In this document: one piece after another, positions 7,450 through 13,673 of the stretch
How the letters are laid out: every line of letters begins with the position of its first letter
Numbering within the stretch: the first letter of the stretch is position 1
Virus record (IMG/VR): IMGVR_UViG_3300047478_000207
Span: 1 to 21,283 of that record
Strand: one strand, 5' to 3'
Length of the DNA: 21,283 bases
Origin: a virus
Notes under the pieces: model-generated
The model's input: only the letters and a program-made list of their open reading frames with translations
Told to the model about the DNA's origin: nothing
Database searches by the model: none
Program-made: the position numbers and the translations under genes

Positions 7450-7897
7450 CTTTTTCCCTCACAGCTTTTACAAACACCATATTTTCTTTTACCACTTCTT
7501 CTTCAAATTTAAAACCATGATACTTTAAGAATCGGATGGCCTTGATATTATCCTTGGCCACATAATTGTACACAGTTTCATACTTTTCGAACATTCTTTT
7601 AAAATAGGGCTTGGGAAGCGTAAGAAACTCTCTTGTGTAGCAATGAAGCTCTGATGTGCCAAGAAACCAAACACACGCATCTTTCCCTAGGCCGTAGTCC
7701 TGTGACCACCCAAACATTGCGGTTGGCCTGCCATCAATGGTGATTGTGTAAGGCTCATCTGATAACGCAGACGACATCAACAAAGCCTGCCTCGGTGTCT
7801 TCTCTGACCAGACCCTGCACTCTATCTGGTCAATCGTTCTCATGTGGGGGGCAATAGCGTCAATATCGCCCTTGTGTGTTGGTCGTATCTCTATCAT
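7442..7897 (-). CDS. T7 gp13-like GNAT-fold protein
   Basis: This 151-residue protein has a GNAT acetyltransferase-like layout: an N-terminal strand (MIEIRPTHKGDIDAI), a central GRPTAMFGW strand, a WFLGTSELH strand, and the C-terminal segment NIKAIRFLKYHGFKFEEEVV typical of acetyl-CoA-binding N-acetyltransferases. The size and place, between tail nozzle and gp14-like genes, match the phage gp13 family (internal virion protein A), which is needed for correct assembly of the tail core although enzyme activity has not been assigned to it as far as I know. The start ATG overlaps the stop of the nozzle gene in ATGA, which points to translational coupling; the upstream AGGTGA site is weak. The acetyltransferase fold is well supported, but substrate and activity are unknown. 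Confidence 0.8.
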   Translation of the reverse strand: MIEIRPTHKGDIDAIAPHMRTIDQIECRVWSEKTPRQALLMSSALSDEPYTITIDGRPTAMFGWSQDYGLGKDACVWFLGTSELHCYTREFLTLPKPYFKRMFEKYETVYNYVAKDNIKAIRFLKYHGFKFEEEVVKENMVFVKAVREKDV

Positions 7898-10800
7898 GCG
7901 TCACCTAAAGTTACCTCCAGAATCAACCCTGATATTTCAGCAGGGAGAGGATATTTCTGTTTTACCTTAACAGAAGCTTGCTGTGTCATGAAAGAGCTAA
8001 TTGGCACTTCTCTGTCACCTGTAAAGAGAATAGGGTTCTCTGTATTGTCATACTCTGTTTCCTTCATCTCTTCCATGTCACTGTCATCATGACCCACTTC
8101 CAAGCCCCTTGTGTGAACCATACGAGTTGTCACCCTGTTTATGGTTTTCATTTTTCCTGAAATTCCCAAGTTTCCTCTATCGAGAGGCAGTGTTTCAAGC
8201 TCGCAGGTGTAGGGAAGGCCGACTGCAATAAAGCTTCCATAACGATTAAAGACAGCTGTTCCGTTCCTCACAATAACAGGTGGATGAACAGACCCATCAA
8301 GAAGAACAGACACTGTGCATCCCTCTAAATGGTCAAGGCCACTCATTCTATCAATCGGTGTTCCTTGATAATACCGTCCGCAGTCCACAAAATATGCCTT
8401 CTTAATGTCTGGAATGCCATCTGTGTAAAGATTGCGAGAGTGCATCCGCTCAACGTATTTGTAGAATTTGCAACCCCTCTCATTGCAGATATACCGAGTC
8501 ACCACAAAATACACAACGTCTTCGCCATTTTCAGAGATAGTGCAGACTGACCTAAACCTATCTCTACCACTATCTCCAACGCTATCGCCCCATGACCATG
8601 CGATTGTCTGTGCCTCTTTGAGGTAAGACAGCATCAGTATTTTTCCATCTTCTCTAACGCAATACAGAATATTGTCAGGCTCACTTGCATAAGCCCATTC
8701 CCTGATAGGAGAAGCCTCAAGAAGATGCTTTGAGCGAAACGAAATATCATCGGCCTTGTACGAATCAGAATAGAAGTCATACGCCAATGCCCTAACTGTT
8801 GACCCCTTAGACTGCACATACAGAACATCCGTATTCATCACAACAGGTGATATGTGGTTTGCTCCAGTAGAAATAGATTGTGGCTTCACATTAATGGAAG
8901 ATGGAGAAATAGCACCCCCATTATCTGCCCCTGATATTCTAAACGCACCAGAGAGGGTAAGAGCGAGAAGACTTTGCGTGGAAACCAAGTGATTGATTTG
9001 ATTGATTTGCCCAGATGTTCCTGCTGTGATATTGAACTCAATGGAATCATCATCTCTCACAGGATAGCGAATATCCATGTTATCATAGTCACCTGTCTTC
9101 GTCATCCACACCCCTTGTGGAGTCCGACTTGACCCTGCAAAGACCCGACGCTGTTGAAAATACGCACTGCATGAGGGATTGTTTGCGAGCTTCTGGATTG
9201 TCCCTGTGTTTGATGTATGTGCTGTCCACGAGGTTGAATCAACCGTTTCACCATCCTCGTTATAGAAGGTCATGCCGTAATTGGGGGCATCAGGGGGACC
9301 ATACATTGACCGTATAGTGTAATACCCATCCACAAACTGAGTCATGCCTCCAATCCCCGAGATATACACAAGGTCACCTTCTGCCCATTCGCTTGGTGTT
9401 CCTGTATACAAGACCCCCGCAGGATTCGCCTGAGAGATGGTTGTTATACTCGCTGTCGTGGGGACAAAAGGATTGTAGATTTCAGGAGGACCTTCAGTAA
9501 AGTCTGGGGAAACATTCTGGTCAGTGAAAGAATTTGATTCAGTGTGTCCAACATAACCATACATAGACCCTGTTGAAGGCGAGCCACCTGTGACTTCCTG
9601 CTGTCTGTATATTTTATATCGCTTTGCCCCTGAGTTCGCAGTCCATGAAAGAGAGATGTTCGGGTAAGGAGAGCCAGAGGCGACAGGGGCTGACATTGCA
9701 ACAGACACAGCAGACGCAATGGCAGATGGCCTGCTTTCCTGCTCGGCTTTATTGACGCAGGTGACTTTGTATCTGTATGTGGTATCAGCACTCGCTGTAA
9801 CAGAGGGTGTTGCTGTGACCCCAGTGGGTGCAAGAAGTGGCGGTTTAAAGTCCAAGCGTGCCAAGTTCCAAATAGCATGCCCCTGTCTTGTGAGAATGCG
9901 AGGCTCATAATCAGGATGTGTAATTGTCATGACATCGGCATCTTGAACAAACTTCAAAAGATGAAGGTCTTCCCCCTTGTACGGCATAGACTTTGTAAAA
10001 ATGCGTTGGAGTCTTCCTGAATTAGCCTGTGCCTCGAAATACTCCGAGGTGTCCAAATAAGCCCCATCAAAATACTTGAGCTTCATGGTGTCGCCAACAC
10101 GGTCAGATACGATAAAGATTTTGTTATTTATCTCATCATAAGGGACAGCGTTGGTGTCGTTAACAAGAAGTGTTCCTGCGACTGTACCTGCTGTAAATCC
10201 ACCTGTTCCACCAACTTCATAAAACAAGCGGAGGTATCTCTTTATTTCGCCTCTTGTCCCATCATTTAACACGATATTATTAATCCGCACCGCACCTGCC
10301 GTTAAACTTCCAACAGCTAGTGCGGAAGATGAGTACATCGTTTCAAAGGTGGTGAATAACCTACTATTTGATGTCTGAACATGAAATGTCAGTGTTGCTG
10401 ATGCTCCCACAAATGCAGTTCCTACTACGCACCGTGCAGAAAGCTCATCTTCAATGTTCTGATAGTCCGACCCAAGGTCAATAATCTTCTCACTCACAAC
10501 CGACGTAGACCTGACATCTTGAGAGCCATCATCAAACCGTGGTCTTTTATACGCACCCACAAACTGAACGTGAGAGCCTGAACCATAGACAGGCTTTGTT
10601 CCATCTGTTGTCAGTGTGACAACGGCCTCTGTTGCTGTTGTAATGCTAACAATAGACCTTTGAATAACATTACTATCTTCATCTGTTTCAAGGACATACC
10701 CACCATTGCGAATAACCCTCATATATTTATGACCAAATTCAAGAGCATAGCTGTCTTGCTCGTTGAACTGGAATGGGATTAATCTCACAACATCTGAAAT

Positions 10801-10998
10801 ACTGGGGTCTAGATTCTGACCACGACATACACCAACAAATTCAGTGCCTGCTCTGTTACAGACCCCTGCCTGAGGTTTTACAAAGAAGTTTCTAATCGTC
10901 TTTGCCCCATTCGCATAAAGGTCAATGTCTACACGAGCATGAAGATGAGGGGATATTTCACCGTTACCAAAGTTTGTTTGAAAGATTGAATTGGTCAT
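7894..10998 (-). CDS. Tail nozzle/tubular protein B-like, with cement-like, Fn3-like and FCCH-like inserts
   Basis: This 1034-residue protein probably forms the tail nozzle below the adaptor. The N-terminus (FGNGEISPHLHARVDIDLY, then NFFVKPQAGVCNRAGTEFV at about 37-55) has the GEISP/RxGT signature of T7 gp12-type nozzle proteins. Residues about 183-281 resemble the phage's own cement protein (see findings). Residues about 388-495 look like a fibronectin type III domain (PTGVTATPSV, ISLSWTANSGAKRYKIYR). Residues about 513-603 resemble the beta-barrel often labelled E1-FCCH-like in phage tail proteins (GDLVYISGIGGMTQFVDGYYT). The nozzle beta-propeller part resumes at about 608 (RRVFAGSSRTPQGVWMT). 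The start overlaps the adaptor stop in TAATG and the stop overlaps the GNAT start. It is longer than T7 gp12 (about 800 residues), which the inserts explain. Confidence 0.88.
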   Translation of the reverse strand: MTNSIFQTNFGNGEISPHLHARVDIDLYANGAKTIRNFFVKPQAGVCNRAGTEFVGVCRGQNLDPSISDVVRLIPFQFNEQDSYALEFGHKYMRVIRNGGYVLETDEDSNVIQRSIVSITTATEAVVTLTTDGTKPVYGSGSHVQFVGAYKRPRFDDGSQDVRSTSVVSEKIIDLGSDYQNIEDELSARCVVGTAFVGASATLTFHVQTSNSRLFTTFETMYSSSALAVGSLTAGAVRINNIVLNDGTRGEIKRYLRLFYEVGGTGGFTAGTVAGTLLVNDTNAVPYDEINNKIFIVSDRVGDTMKLKYFDGAYLDTSEYFEAQANSGRLQRIFTKSMPYKGEDLHLLKFVQDADVMTITHPDYEPRILTRQGHAIWNLARLDFKPPLLAPTGVTATPSVTASADTTYRYKVTCVNKAEQESRPSAIASAVSVAMSAPVASGSPYPNISLSWTANSGAKRYKIYRQQEVTGGSPSTGSMYGYVGHTESNSFTDQNVSPDFTEGPPEIYNPFVPTTASITTISQANPAGVLYTGTPSEWAEGDLVYISGIGGMTQFVDGYYTIRSMYGPPDAPNYGMTFYNEDGETVDSTSWTAHTSNTGTIQKLANNPSCSAYFQQRRVFAGSSRTPQGVWMTKTGDYDNMDIRYPVRDDDSIEFNITAGTSGQINQINHLVSTQSLLALTLSGAFRISGADNGGAISPSSINVKPQSISTGANHISPVVMNTDVLYVQSKGSTVRALAYDFYSDSYKADDISFRSKHLLEASPIREWAYASEPDNILYCVREDGKILMLSYLKEAQTIAWSWGDSVGDSGRDRFRSVCTISENGEDVVYFVVTRYICNERGCKFYKYVERMHSRNLYTDGIPDIKKAYFVDCGRYYQGTPIDRMSGLDHLEGCTVSVLLDGSVHPPVIVRNGTAVFNRYGSFIAVGLPYTCELETLPLDRGNLGISGKMKTINRVTTRMVHTRGLEVGHDDSDMEEMKETEYDNTENPILFTGDREVPISSFMTQQASVKVKQKYPLPAEISGLILEVTLGDA
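10150..10506 (-). other. Cement-protein-like domain inside the nozzle gene
   Basis: Nozzle residues about 165-283 include a segment (183-281) that aligns along its length with cement residues 33-130. The clearest block is YLRLFYEVGGTGGFTAGT (255-272) against YVRLNFTVSTGPFTAGT (107-123). Two more blocks are TAFVGASATLTFHVQT against TAFTASGSATLVIAVQT, and ALAVGSLTAG against SIAVASMTAG, all in the same order. Similarity at DNA level is patchy, so the duplication is old or the homology is distant. Confidence 0.8.
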
Positions 10999-11762
10999 TA
11001 GTAACCTGTGTATGGGTAGAGAGATGAACCATAAGGGTAGAATGATGACATGCTATCAGATTGTCTTGCCATCATCATAGATGGCATGGGGTCAAGAATA
11101 ACTGGCCTTTTATCTTTTTCATGTTCTTGGCCATAAACTTGCATTGCCCTTGCGAGAAGCTGTTTTGATTCGGCTGTTATTCCTTGGAGAAGGTTTTTAT
11201 CTCCATTCAGTGCGATAACAAGCTTAGATGCGAGGGTCTTCGTAAGTGTTTCTGTGAAGTCATAAGGAAAGATATTTGTGTCCTCAACGTCAGCCACATA
11301 CATCAGATTTGCCCCTGCCTTGTGGGTATAGAGAACCCTTTGAAGGTATCCTGATGTTAGGTCTGTGCGTGTTCCTTCTGCAAAATATATGTAGTTATTT
11401 TGACCATCTCTAACGTTCCCCAAATTAACAAAGGGAGTTTCAATCTCCCCCTCTGTCTTTGGTTTAATCCAGATTGGCTTTACACAATCACTTGGATAGG
11501 CATAAACATACGCCCAATCCCCCTCAGGCACAAGTGCCGTTCCATCCAGATTCTCTGGTGTTCCTGCCTTTGCTCCCAAGAGAGAGAGGTCTGCATAGCG
11601 TCTTGTGAACGGCCATGCGAGAGCCATCTGCACTTCCCTGCGGGTCATGTCATAGTGAACCTTGCAAGCCTTAGCTGTACTACTCACCTCATCTAAAGAT
11701 GTGATTGTTGCTCTTGCCCCAACCATAGACAGTGCCGAATTGCAAATTTCCACGACTGACAT
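10998..11762 (-). CDS. Tail adaptor (tubular protein A-like)
   Basis: This 254-residue protein resembles the T7 gp11/P22 gp4-type adaptor that docks under the portal and carries the nozzle. It begins with a helix of the form VVEICNSALSMVGA, then CKVHYDMTRREVQMALAWPFTRR at about 32-54, the usual 'ARxxY...R...L...W.FA.R' pattern of this family. It ends in a long helical segment followed by a Met/Ser/Tyr-rich tail (YPYGSSLYPYTGY). The start is ATG 11762, because AAAAGGAG lies five bases upstream; the in-frame GTG at 11768 falls inside that ribosome site. It is followed directly by the nozzle gene (one-base overlap) and preceded, after 19 bases, by the 120-residue unknown. The adaptor call rests on the N-terminal pattern, length and position. 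Confidence 0.85.
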   Translation of the reverse strand: MSVVEICNSALSMVGARATITSLDEVSSTAKACKVHYDMTRREVQMALAWPFTRRYADLSLLGAKAGTPENLDGTALVPEGDWAYVYAYPSDCVKPIWIKPKTEGEIETPFVNLGNVRDGQNNYIYFAEGTRTDLTSGYLQRVLYTHKAGANLMYVADVEDTNIFPYDFTETLTKTLASKLVIALNGDKNLLQGITAESKQLLARAMQVYGQEHEKDKRPVILDPMPSMMMARQSDSMSSFYPYGSSLYPYTGY

Positions 11763-11781
11763 AACCACTCCTTTTAAGGGT

Positions 11782-12144
11782 TTATTTACTTCTTGCTTTG
11801 GAAGATGCTATCTGAACAGCACGCTCCTGCAACGCCTCCTTACTTGCTCCTAATTCATAAGAACTAAGCTCAGGGTCAATAACCCCCTCAGAAAGAGATT
11901 TGTAGTACTCAGCCATAAACTTTGCTCGAATACGCTCTGGGTTCAGAACAAACTCAGCTTGCTGTGTCAGCTTTCGCTTTGTTTGCAGTTTCTCCATTGC
12001 TCTTTGTGCAGGTTCATCAATAGGTTCCCATGTAATTGAGGGAACATGGTCATCTGAAACCAGAACCTCACGTCCCAATTCTGGGTCAACTCTGATAAGC
12101 TGTGCGTCAATTTCACAAGGTTCGTAAGTTTTGTATAAAGCCAT
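11782..12144 (-). CDS. Unknown 120-residue protein between cement and adaptor genes
   Basis: I do not recognise a family. The N-terminal half has short strands (ALYKTYEPCEIDAQLIRVDP); the second half is charged and probably helical (about residues 48-120, rich in Glu, Lys, Arg and Gln). There is no signal peptide or membrane segment. The ATG has AGGAG five bases upstream, eight bases after the cement stop, so it is well placed for translation in the same transcript. Its position in a BPP-1-like order, after the cement gene and before the adaptor, suggests a head or head-to-tail completion factor, but this is only a guess from context. Confidence 0.75.
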   Translation of the reverse strand: MALYKTYEPCEIDAQLIRVDPELGREVLVSDDHVPSITWEPIDEPAQRAMEKLQTKRKLTQQAEFVLNPERIRAKFMAEYYKSLSEGVIDPELSSYELGASKEALQERAVQIASSKARSK

Positions 12145-12152
12145 AAATACTC

Positions 12153-12599
12153 CTAGATGTATCCTAAGTTAAGTCCACTTGTGTATGCTGTATTAACCGC
12201 AGGTTCAATATCAGTTACATGAGCAAACAACGTTCCTGCTGTAAATGGACCAGTAGAAACAGTGAAGTTCAAACGAACGTACTTCTCAGCACCACGAGGA
12301 AGCTTAATCGCATTCAGCAGTTTTGTTCCTGCTGTCATACTTGCCACAGCAATAGATGGTGATGTGTACAAGGTTGTTGGGCTTGAGAATGATGTGTTAT
12401 CATCTGTTTGAACAGCAATAACCAATGTCGCAGAACCAGACGCTGTGAAGGCTGTCTGCACCATAGCATCAATATAAAGATTACAACCAACGCCCCAATC
12501 TCCACCACCAATGTCTAAAGCGACATGGTTTGTGGAAGCCCGAGTCACTGTCAGTGCGGTATTCGAAGGCTCTAAGACCTGTAAACTGTCAATCAACAT
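12153..12599 (-). CDS. Bbp16-like capsid cement (decoration) protein
   Basis: This 148-residue protein matches the type of small beta-rich protein encoded just after the capsid gene in BPP-1-like phages, where a jellyroll cement protein staples capsomers. The sequence is almost all predicted strands, rich in Thr, Ser, Ala and Val, with few charges (for example SATLVIAVQTDDNTSF at 56-71, YVRLNFTVSTGPFTAGT at 107-123). The AGGAG of its ribosome site overlaps the capsid stop (TAGGAG), giving a nine-base gap and tight coupling. The same fold recurs inside the tail nozzle gene of this phage. Role as cement protein is inferred from family resemblance and position. Confidence 0.8.
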   Translation of the reverse strand: MLIDSLQVLEPSNTALTVTRASTNHVALDIGGGDWGVGCNLYIDAMVQTAFTASGSATLVIAVQTDDNTSFSSPTTLYTSPSIAVASMTAGTKLLNAIKLPRGAEKYVRLNFTVSTGPFTAGTLFAHVTDIEPAVNTAYTSGLNLGYI

Positions 12600-12608
12600 A
12601 ATTCGCTC

Positions 12609-13673
12609 CTATGACACGGTCGATTCGGTGTTTAAAATAGCATCGCAAATAACAATAGGGATACCACGGAAATTTGGATAGTAAGTTCCTGCACCTTCAC
12701 CAAGCGATAAGTATGGTGTCAACGCATTCATCTGACGGTCAAACAGGGATTCACAGCCACGGTTCATATAGATAACTGTACGAACACTTCCTGAATTGGA
12801 CATTTTCAGGCCGTTATTCGCTCCTGCATCACGAGCATTTGTAAAGCGTTGTTGTGGGCGACCAAGTTTCTTGAGGCCTTGGGCAATCAAGTTTGGCAAG
12901 TTCGCAGCACTAGAGTTTGCTTGAGCATTGGACATATCAATATTACAGATACGAACAGCCCCACGATAGTCAGCAACAGTCAGACCAGAATCCCAAGAGA
13001 AGTAAGTGTGGTGAGCATAGTAGGTATTGCTGTCGCCATCGAGAACAGGGAACTCACCTTTGTACTTACTCTGAATCCCAGATGTTGAGTTCTCAGGGAA
13101 GATGCAGGTTAATGAACGAATGCCCCACTGAACAATCCAGATAGACGAGTTATCATTTCCTGAACCACCACCAGAGATAACCTGACCGCCAATATTACCA
13201 GAGAGGGTGTTATAGCGTGCTGTTAATCCTGTGAACGAAGAAGGGTCATCAACAGATGCACCTGCTACGTTTCCATAGAATAATGTCGAACACCATTCAT
13301 TGGACATAGACTCGAAGAATGCATGGCTTTCATCAACCATAGCCGTCTTCATGTCCTTTGTGTAACGCTCCATCCGAGTGTCCACAATAGACTGCCCTTC
13401 AAGCATCCCCATTGTATCCACGATTTTTGTGGTTGAAGACTTGCTATTTGGCGTTCCTTTATAGAGCTGACCCCATCTGACGGTGGGCAATGCTGTCCGA
13501 ATAGTTGTCACATTGCTGTTAGACTGATTGGATTGTTTCCACATCGCATCATCAAGAATACCGTTCCATTGGGACAGCATCTCAACCACACCCTCAGAAA
13601 CGCCACTATCTTTATCTCCGAACCGTTTTGCATAATCATGCAACGTCAGAACTGTTGTTCCAGTAATCGCCAT
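12609..13673 (-). CDS. Major capsid protein (HK97-fold, BPP-1 Bbp17-like)
   Basis: This 354-residue protein is the probable shell protein. It opens with LTLHDYAKRFGD, followed by VSEGVVEMLSQWNGILDDAMW (split around residues 24-45), a beginning I associate with capsid proteins of BPP-1-like and related podoviruses. Other family-like features are MGMLEGQSIVDTRM at about 88-101 and the C-terminal YYPNFRGIPIVICDAIL. No N-terminal protease-processed domain is apparent, fitting a separate scaffold. The ATG has AAGGA six bases upstream, inside the end of the scaffold gene, which stops three bases before. Scaffold upstream and cement downstream support the assignment strongly. Confidence 0.9.
   Translation of the reverse strand: MAITGTTVLTLHDYAKRFGDKDSGVSEGVVEMLSQWNGILDDAMWKQSNQSNSNVTTIRTALPTVRWGQLYKGTPNSKSSTTKIVDTMGMLEGQSIVDTRMERYTKDMKTAMVDESHAFFESMSNEWCSTLFYGNVAGASVDDPSSFTGLTARYNTLSGNIGGQVISGGGSGNDNSSIWIVQWGIRSLTCIFPENSTSGIQSKYKGEFPVLDGDSNTYYAHHTYFSWDSGLTVADYRGAVRICNIDMSNAQANSSAANLPNLIAQGLKKLGRPQQRFTNARDAGANNGLKMSNSGSVRTVIYMNRGCESLFDRQMNALTPYLSLGEGAGTYYPNFRGIPIVICDAILNTESTVS

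Follow-up and report, generated by a model that had tools for sequence, protein, structure and literature searches.

A short-tailed uncultured phage has a capsid cement domain, of the kind that normally glues the outside of the head, built into its tail nozzle (Table 1). The phage is represented by IMG/VR record IMGVR_UViG_3300047478_000207, whose 21,283 bases form the window analysed here. Our data support a model in which the Bbp16 jellyroll fold is used twice in one phage, as head decoration and as a module inserted in the tail nozzle. The domain is a known one, as is the protein that carries it; its place within the nozzle is new and was found in one virus. A literature search found no paper that treats Bbp16 and the nozzle together. 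The initial annotation had pointed out that a segment of the nozzle resembles the cement protein, and had proposed profile–profile alignment, structure comparison and a survey of related nozzles as checks.

The genes of the window follow the order terminase, portal, putative protease-region ORF, capsid protein, cement, 120-aa ORF, adaptor and nozzle, a cassette common to BPP-1, epsilon15, phiV10 and Carin-1. The cement protein is encoded by a separate gene (12153-12599) directly downstream of that for the major capsid protein; the nozzle insert has no gene of its own and is internal to the 1034-aa ORF, which starts where the adaptor gene ends. An AlphaFold2 model of the full nozzle superposes on the Carin-1 nozzle 8ck1_A with Z 44.8 (rmsd 1.6 over 572 residues) and on T7 gp12 with Z 26-27. 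The protein thus has the platform and seven-bladed beta-propeller fold of a T7 gp12-type nozzle, and its gene follows that of the adaptor, as in this type. For the 120-aa ORF that separates cement from adaptor (11782-12144, minus strand) no family was matched, and other phages also carry small variable genes at this position. The adaptors annotated as tail tubular protein A in relatives from Manatee Spring are longer, with 753 aa (L001:3728-5989) and 652 aa (L003:3351-5309) compared with 256 aa in this phage and 223 aa in BPP-1; the extra length has no clear Pfam domain.

Table 1. Features of the nozzle, cement and neighbouring genes in the 21,283-base window.
Feature	Position	Strand	Evidence
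Tail nozzle protein (T7 gp12 / BPP-1 Bbp13 type), 1034 aa	7894..10998	-	phrog_376 tail protein E 1.4e-173; AlphaFold2 model vs 8ck1_A
Nozzle residues 1-105, conserved N-terminal block (start of platform and beta-propeller)	10684..10998	-	matches 8ck1 10-109; aligned in relatives
FCCH-like module, first half, residues 104-148	10555..10689	-	slot-module HMM positions 4-26 vs residues 112-134; model strands
Inserted Bbp16 jellyroll, residues 160-279	10162..10521	-	PF21190, hhalign, predicted fold
FCCH-like module, second half, residues 288-334	9997..10137	-	HMM positions 41-86 vs residues 287-333
Nozzle residues 607-1034: remaining propeller, fibre dock, platform	7897..9180	-	matches 8ck1 332-827; propeller matches span model 44-855
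Stand-alone capsid cement protein (Bbp16 family), 148 aa	12153..12599	-	PF21190 76.4 bits, E 2.8e-21; PDB 8cjz_B E 2.7e-13, 3j4u_H E 5.7e-9
Major capsid protein (GP7 / Bbp17 type)	12609..13673	-	PF20911 E 2e-91; NF045672 E 6.4e-72
Tail adaptor (tail tubular protein A type), 256 aa	10998..11768	-	phrog_394 tail protein E 5.5e-41

The resemblance between the nozzle segment and the cement protein was confirmed by BLASTP, shuffling, PF21190, hhalign and predicted topology. BLASTP with composition adjustment aligned cement residues 28-133 with nozzle residues 173-286 at 33% identity over 115 columns (E 2e-10), and the Smith-Waterman score of the pair was 140 compared with 38 +/- 5 for shuffled sequences (maximum 64, n=1000). 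The Bbp16 family model PF21190, which has a curated cut-off of 27.1, gave 41.5 bits for nozzle residues 160-274 and 76.4 bits for the cement; phrog_427 likewise matches both proteins. Profile–profile alignment agreed: a profile built on 29 cement proteins of other phages, with neither sequence of this phage included, matched nozzle residues 160-276 in hhalign with E 2.8e-11. A search of the whole record (21,283 bases) found two Bbp16 copies, the cement and the nozzle insert. The common descent proposed initially is therefore borne out by sequence, profile and predicted fold, as is the sharing of one fold between the cement gene and the nozzle module. The extent given for the nozzle segment, residues ~183-281, did capture the homologous block; the block is slightly longer and covers residues ~160-279 (nt ~10162-10521). 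Identity of the insert to cements is ~30-38%, with the reading frame and the jellyroll core intact, and the segment between the E and G strands is well preserved in it (ALAVGSLTAG vs SIAVASMTAG). In GC content, overall and at third positions, the insert resembles the N-terminal region of the nozzle and the cement.

The insert was also modelled on its own with AlphaFold2, its sequence being aligned for this purpose with 49 Bbp16 domains (mean pLDDT 83.6). The closest structures were 3j4u_H, the BPP-1 cement protein (Z 15.3, rmsd 2.2 over 124 residues), and 8cjz_A, the Carin-1 cement protein (Z 14.8), followed by a next-best entry at Z 8.3, and Foldseek agreed in placing the model nearest to cement proteins; because the alignment is made of cements it favours a cement fold, and the comparison tests fold compatibility and is no independent proof. 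The sequence statistics for homology are independent of this model. In the full nozzle model, confident strands (113-119, 126-129, 143-147, 294-301 and 304-308; pLDDT ~85) lie on both sides of the insert. The insert itself has pLDDT <50, with no confidence for residues 150-287, because there are no aligned relatives over that stretch, and its orientation on the nozzle is not fixed by the model.

The jellyroll is a domain within a domain, in an arrangement of three levels absent from the initial annotation: a propeller loop holds an FCCH-like barrel, which in turn holds the Bbp16 jellyroll. Alignment with the nozzles of MW202738 and MW202473 places the insert within this module. Nozzle residues 104-337 are extra relative to Carin-1, in which the conserved blocks flank a short turn; the FCCH-like module follows the conserved N-terminal block and precedes the strands with which the propeller continues. 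An HMM of the modules that 13 other nozzles carry in the slot matches this nozzle in two halves, residues 112-134 and 287-333. Splicing out the Bbp16 stretch joins them into a single complete match of 43.0 bits, compared with 10.3 for the best of 497 shuffles. The Pfam FCCH model PF16190 stays below threshold on the divergent module of this phage, although it recognizes several relatives. In MW202738 the FCCH-like module is uninterrupted and has a slightly longer loop at the corresponding insertion point.

We surveyed the slot in 68 sequence-distinct nozzle frames, this phage included. It measures 5-13 residues in 40/68, 19 and 22 residues in two, and 52-553 residues in 26/68; the slot of this phage comprises 229 residues, made up of the FCCH-like module and the Bbp16 domain. 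FCCH modules occupy the slot in L001, L003, L039, L053, L058, L063, L126 and L133, CBM5/12 modules in L081 and L129, and laminin-G/ConA-like domains in L012 (IMGVR_UViG_3300022539_000216) and L014 (IMGVR_UViG_3300028610_000267). The slot is thus a site where related nozzles carry optional extra modules, of which several belong to sugar-binding families. The L014 nozzle, of 1339 aa, has two laminin-G/ConA-like domains, and neither the L012 nor the L014 record has a Bbp16 match. Further on, the nozzles of L011 and L013 have a second slot, with an F5/8 type C (galactose-binding-like) domain at residues ~182-293, after a conserved QSADVM-HPD block.

In the same survey, none of the other 67 sequence-distinct nozzles carries Bbp16, which was found there in this virus only. 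Exactly one Bbp16 copy, always a short stand-alone frame, was present in 35/40 of the searched records. With the insert as query, viral contigs returned only cement genes and one identical record, IMGVR_UViG_3300043431_000374, which is 100% identical over 11,272 bases that cover both insert junctions and may share its sample or raw data with our record. No embedded Bbp16 copy was found in 398 Pseudomonadota genomes. Two candidates for such a copy were rejected: a 659-aa frame (G039) reflects read-through of the GC-rich DNA upstream of an ordinary cement gene, and the match in L116 scores below threshold and lies in an unrelated gene. In a bacterial genome, a capsid-like ORF is closely followed downstream by a 177-aa ORF (L117:1210-1743) that is weakly and distantly related to Bbp16 (PF21190 E 5e-4; iterated HMM 3.9e-9), which suggests that the family may extend beyond BPP-1-like podoviruses. 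Limnohabitans phage DC33 (L130, PQ492659.1) is classified in the Inoviridae, yet encodes cement and nozzle within a podovirus cassette of the BPP-1 type; its taxonomy is probably wrong.

The closest annotated nozzles, at 41-45% identity, are those of Podoviridae sp. MW202738, MW202473 and MW202478 from Manatee Spring. They have FCCH or FCCH-like modules in the slot and no Bbp16, and each genome carries one stand-alone Bbp16 copy. The Carin-1 (Cobetia phage) nozzle 8ck1 belongs to the same family and shares its core with the nozzle described here, but its slot is a 6-residue turn as opposed to 229 residues. The BPP-1 nozzle, Bbp13, has no insert, unlike that of our phage. SU10 and crAss001 offer a looser parallel: the SU10 nozzle and the crAss001 muzzle are also beta-propellers with extra beta-sandwich domains at early blades. 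These are Ig-like domains inserted at blades 2 and 3 (PMC9509320, PMC10172136) and, unlike the present insert, have not been described as homologues of the phages' own capsid cement.

Among 88 Bbp16 domains, the best pairwise match of the insert is the cement of the same phage (44.8 bits; next 36.4). In a maximum-likelihood tree the insert falls away from this cement, on a long branch (1.89; 145 columns) and with a placement that lacks support. Approximately unbiased (AU) tests rejected neither a sister relationship with the phage's own cement (p 0.22) nor membership of a clade with the nearest, Manatee Spring, cements (p 0.26). We consider it likely, although less certain, that the insert was duplicated from the phage's own cement gene, which lies 1.6 kb away.

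BPP-1 Bbp16 (3j4u; PF21190) belongs to the same jellyroll family as the insert. It is a separate, capsid-bound protein, a dimer formed by F-strand pairing, whose two termini and B-C loop grip the capsid (PMC3863775); a functional cement of this family is expected to sit as a dimer on capsid two-fold axes. The insert is an internal nozzle domain in which these capsid-binding elements are missing. We compared the positions that at least 80% of cements share, with strand names carried over to this phage's protein from the BPP-1 description. The N-arm columns M1, D4 and S10 are absent or changed, and there is no M1-D4 arm. In the B-C loop, D34, G36 and G38 are replaced or missing. There is no C-tail, and the chain continues straight into the second FCCH-like half. 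Three of seven conserved columns are kept in the first strand region, and in the jellyroll core most of the strongly conserved residues are kept: G91, Y107, Y112 and T120 are present, P101 is not. Judged by these columns, the insert has neither N-arm nor C-tail nor the signature of the B-C loop and is therefore probably not a cement. Trimer contacts, suggested in the initial annotation, are not supported and were rejected as the default, since the BPP-1 cement is a dimer. The trimer-forming GP4 cement has been described as Ig-like.

The reading we favour, with a probability of about 60%, is that the insert is a structural or adhesive appendage of the nozzle that faces outward and no longer binds the head. 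On this reading, the Bbp16 cement jellyroll entered the nozzle of a BPP-1-like podovirus as an additional copy, and this copy would have lost head binding, as suggested by the absence of the elements that hold the capsid in BPP-1. The jellyroll would project from the outer side of the nozzle, since the early propeller blades of the related SU10 nozzle face away from the channel (PMC9509320, PMC10172136). Were the nozzle a hexamer, each tail would bear six copies. The appendage would lie close to the tail fibres or to the surface of the cell and replace the CBM, lectin-like or FCCH modules of relatives. The conservation of core and frame at ~30-38% identity to all cements suggests that the insert is under selection and is not a recent neutral insertion. 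It may bind carbohydrate, for which the CBM5/12 or laminin-G/ConA-like modules in the slots of relatives provide circumstantial support. No carbohydrate-binding or lectin profile matched the insert, to which Bbp16 alone was matched, and comparison of the insert model with lectins and CBMs, the Bc2L-C lectin included, gave Z ~7 (all <8), within background.

Four other roles or histories were weighed. The insert could be an oligomerization or bracing element, its F-strand edge pairing with neighbouring nozzle subunits or with cement dimers near the tail vertex and stiffening the tail or the head–tail junction. Pairing of this kind is how the BPP-1 cement dimerizes (PMC3863775), the E-to-G segment is well kept in the insert, and in SU10 the domains of the nozzle touch one another as well as the short fibres. 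We nevertheless regard bracing as unlikely, as the insert has lost the parts by which cement touches the major capsid protein and the F strand of the insert is named by transfer from BPP-1. In a more specific version, which appears rather improbable to us, the phage would have recycled its own cement gene into the tail by intragenomic duplication, and the nozzle copy would keep the dimer edge, joining nozzle subunits or, at the portal vertex, linking cement dimers with the tail; if this were true, one fold would brace both head and tail. We give similarly little weight to the idea of a neutral spacer, which arose by recombination and is tolerated although it does nothing itself: the insert is found in one virus only and the slot tolerates widely differing lengths, but a fold core and frame kept at such divergence suggest selection. 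Still more doubtful is a docking platform for a fibre or spike, holding a receptor-binding protein on the nozzle. The SU10 short fibre does dock to a loop at the edge of propeller blade 1, and variation of the slot between phages is expected of host-range parts; however, the fibre dock domain of T7-type nozzles already lies in another part of the protein (PMC6702177), and in most relatives the slot is without a domain. Finally, Thr/Ser/Gly-rich, beta-rich proteins can align by composition, but chance similarity, or an assembly artefact joining cement to nozzle, is refuted for practical purposes by the composition-adjusted E value and the far lower scores of all 1000 shuffles, the lack of a comparable match in the other 67 distinct nozzles, the second record (identical across both junctions, if possibly from shared raw data) and a divergence from the cement (only 33-38% identity) that does not fit a misjoined copy.

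With both copies in one genome, this phage provides a clear case of a capsid-decorating fold that has moved into the tail. The comparison also maps a loop of the BPP-1-like nozzle as a slot for optional modules, which can be FCCH, CBM5/12, laminin-G or, here, Bbp16. Provided that its module points outward, such a slot would offer phages an obvious site at which to alter the contact between tail and cell surface.
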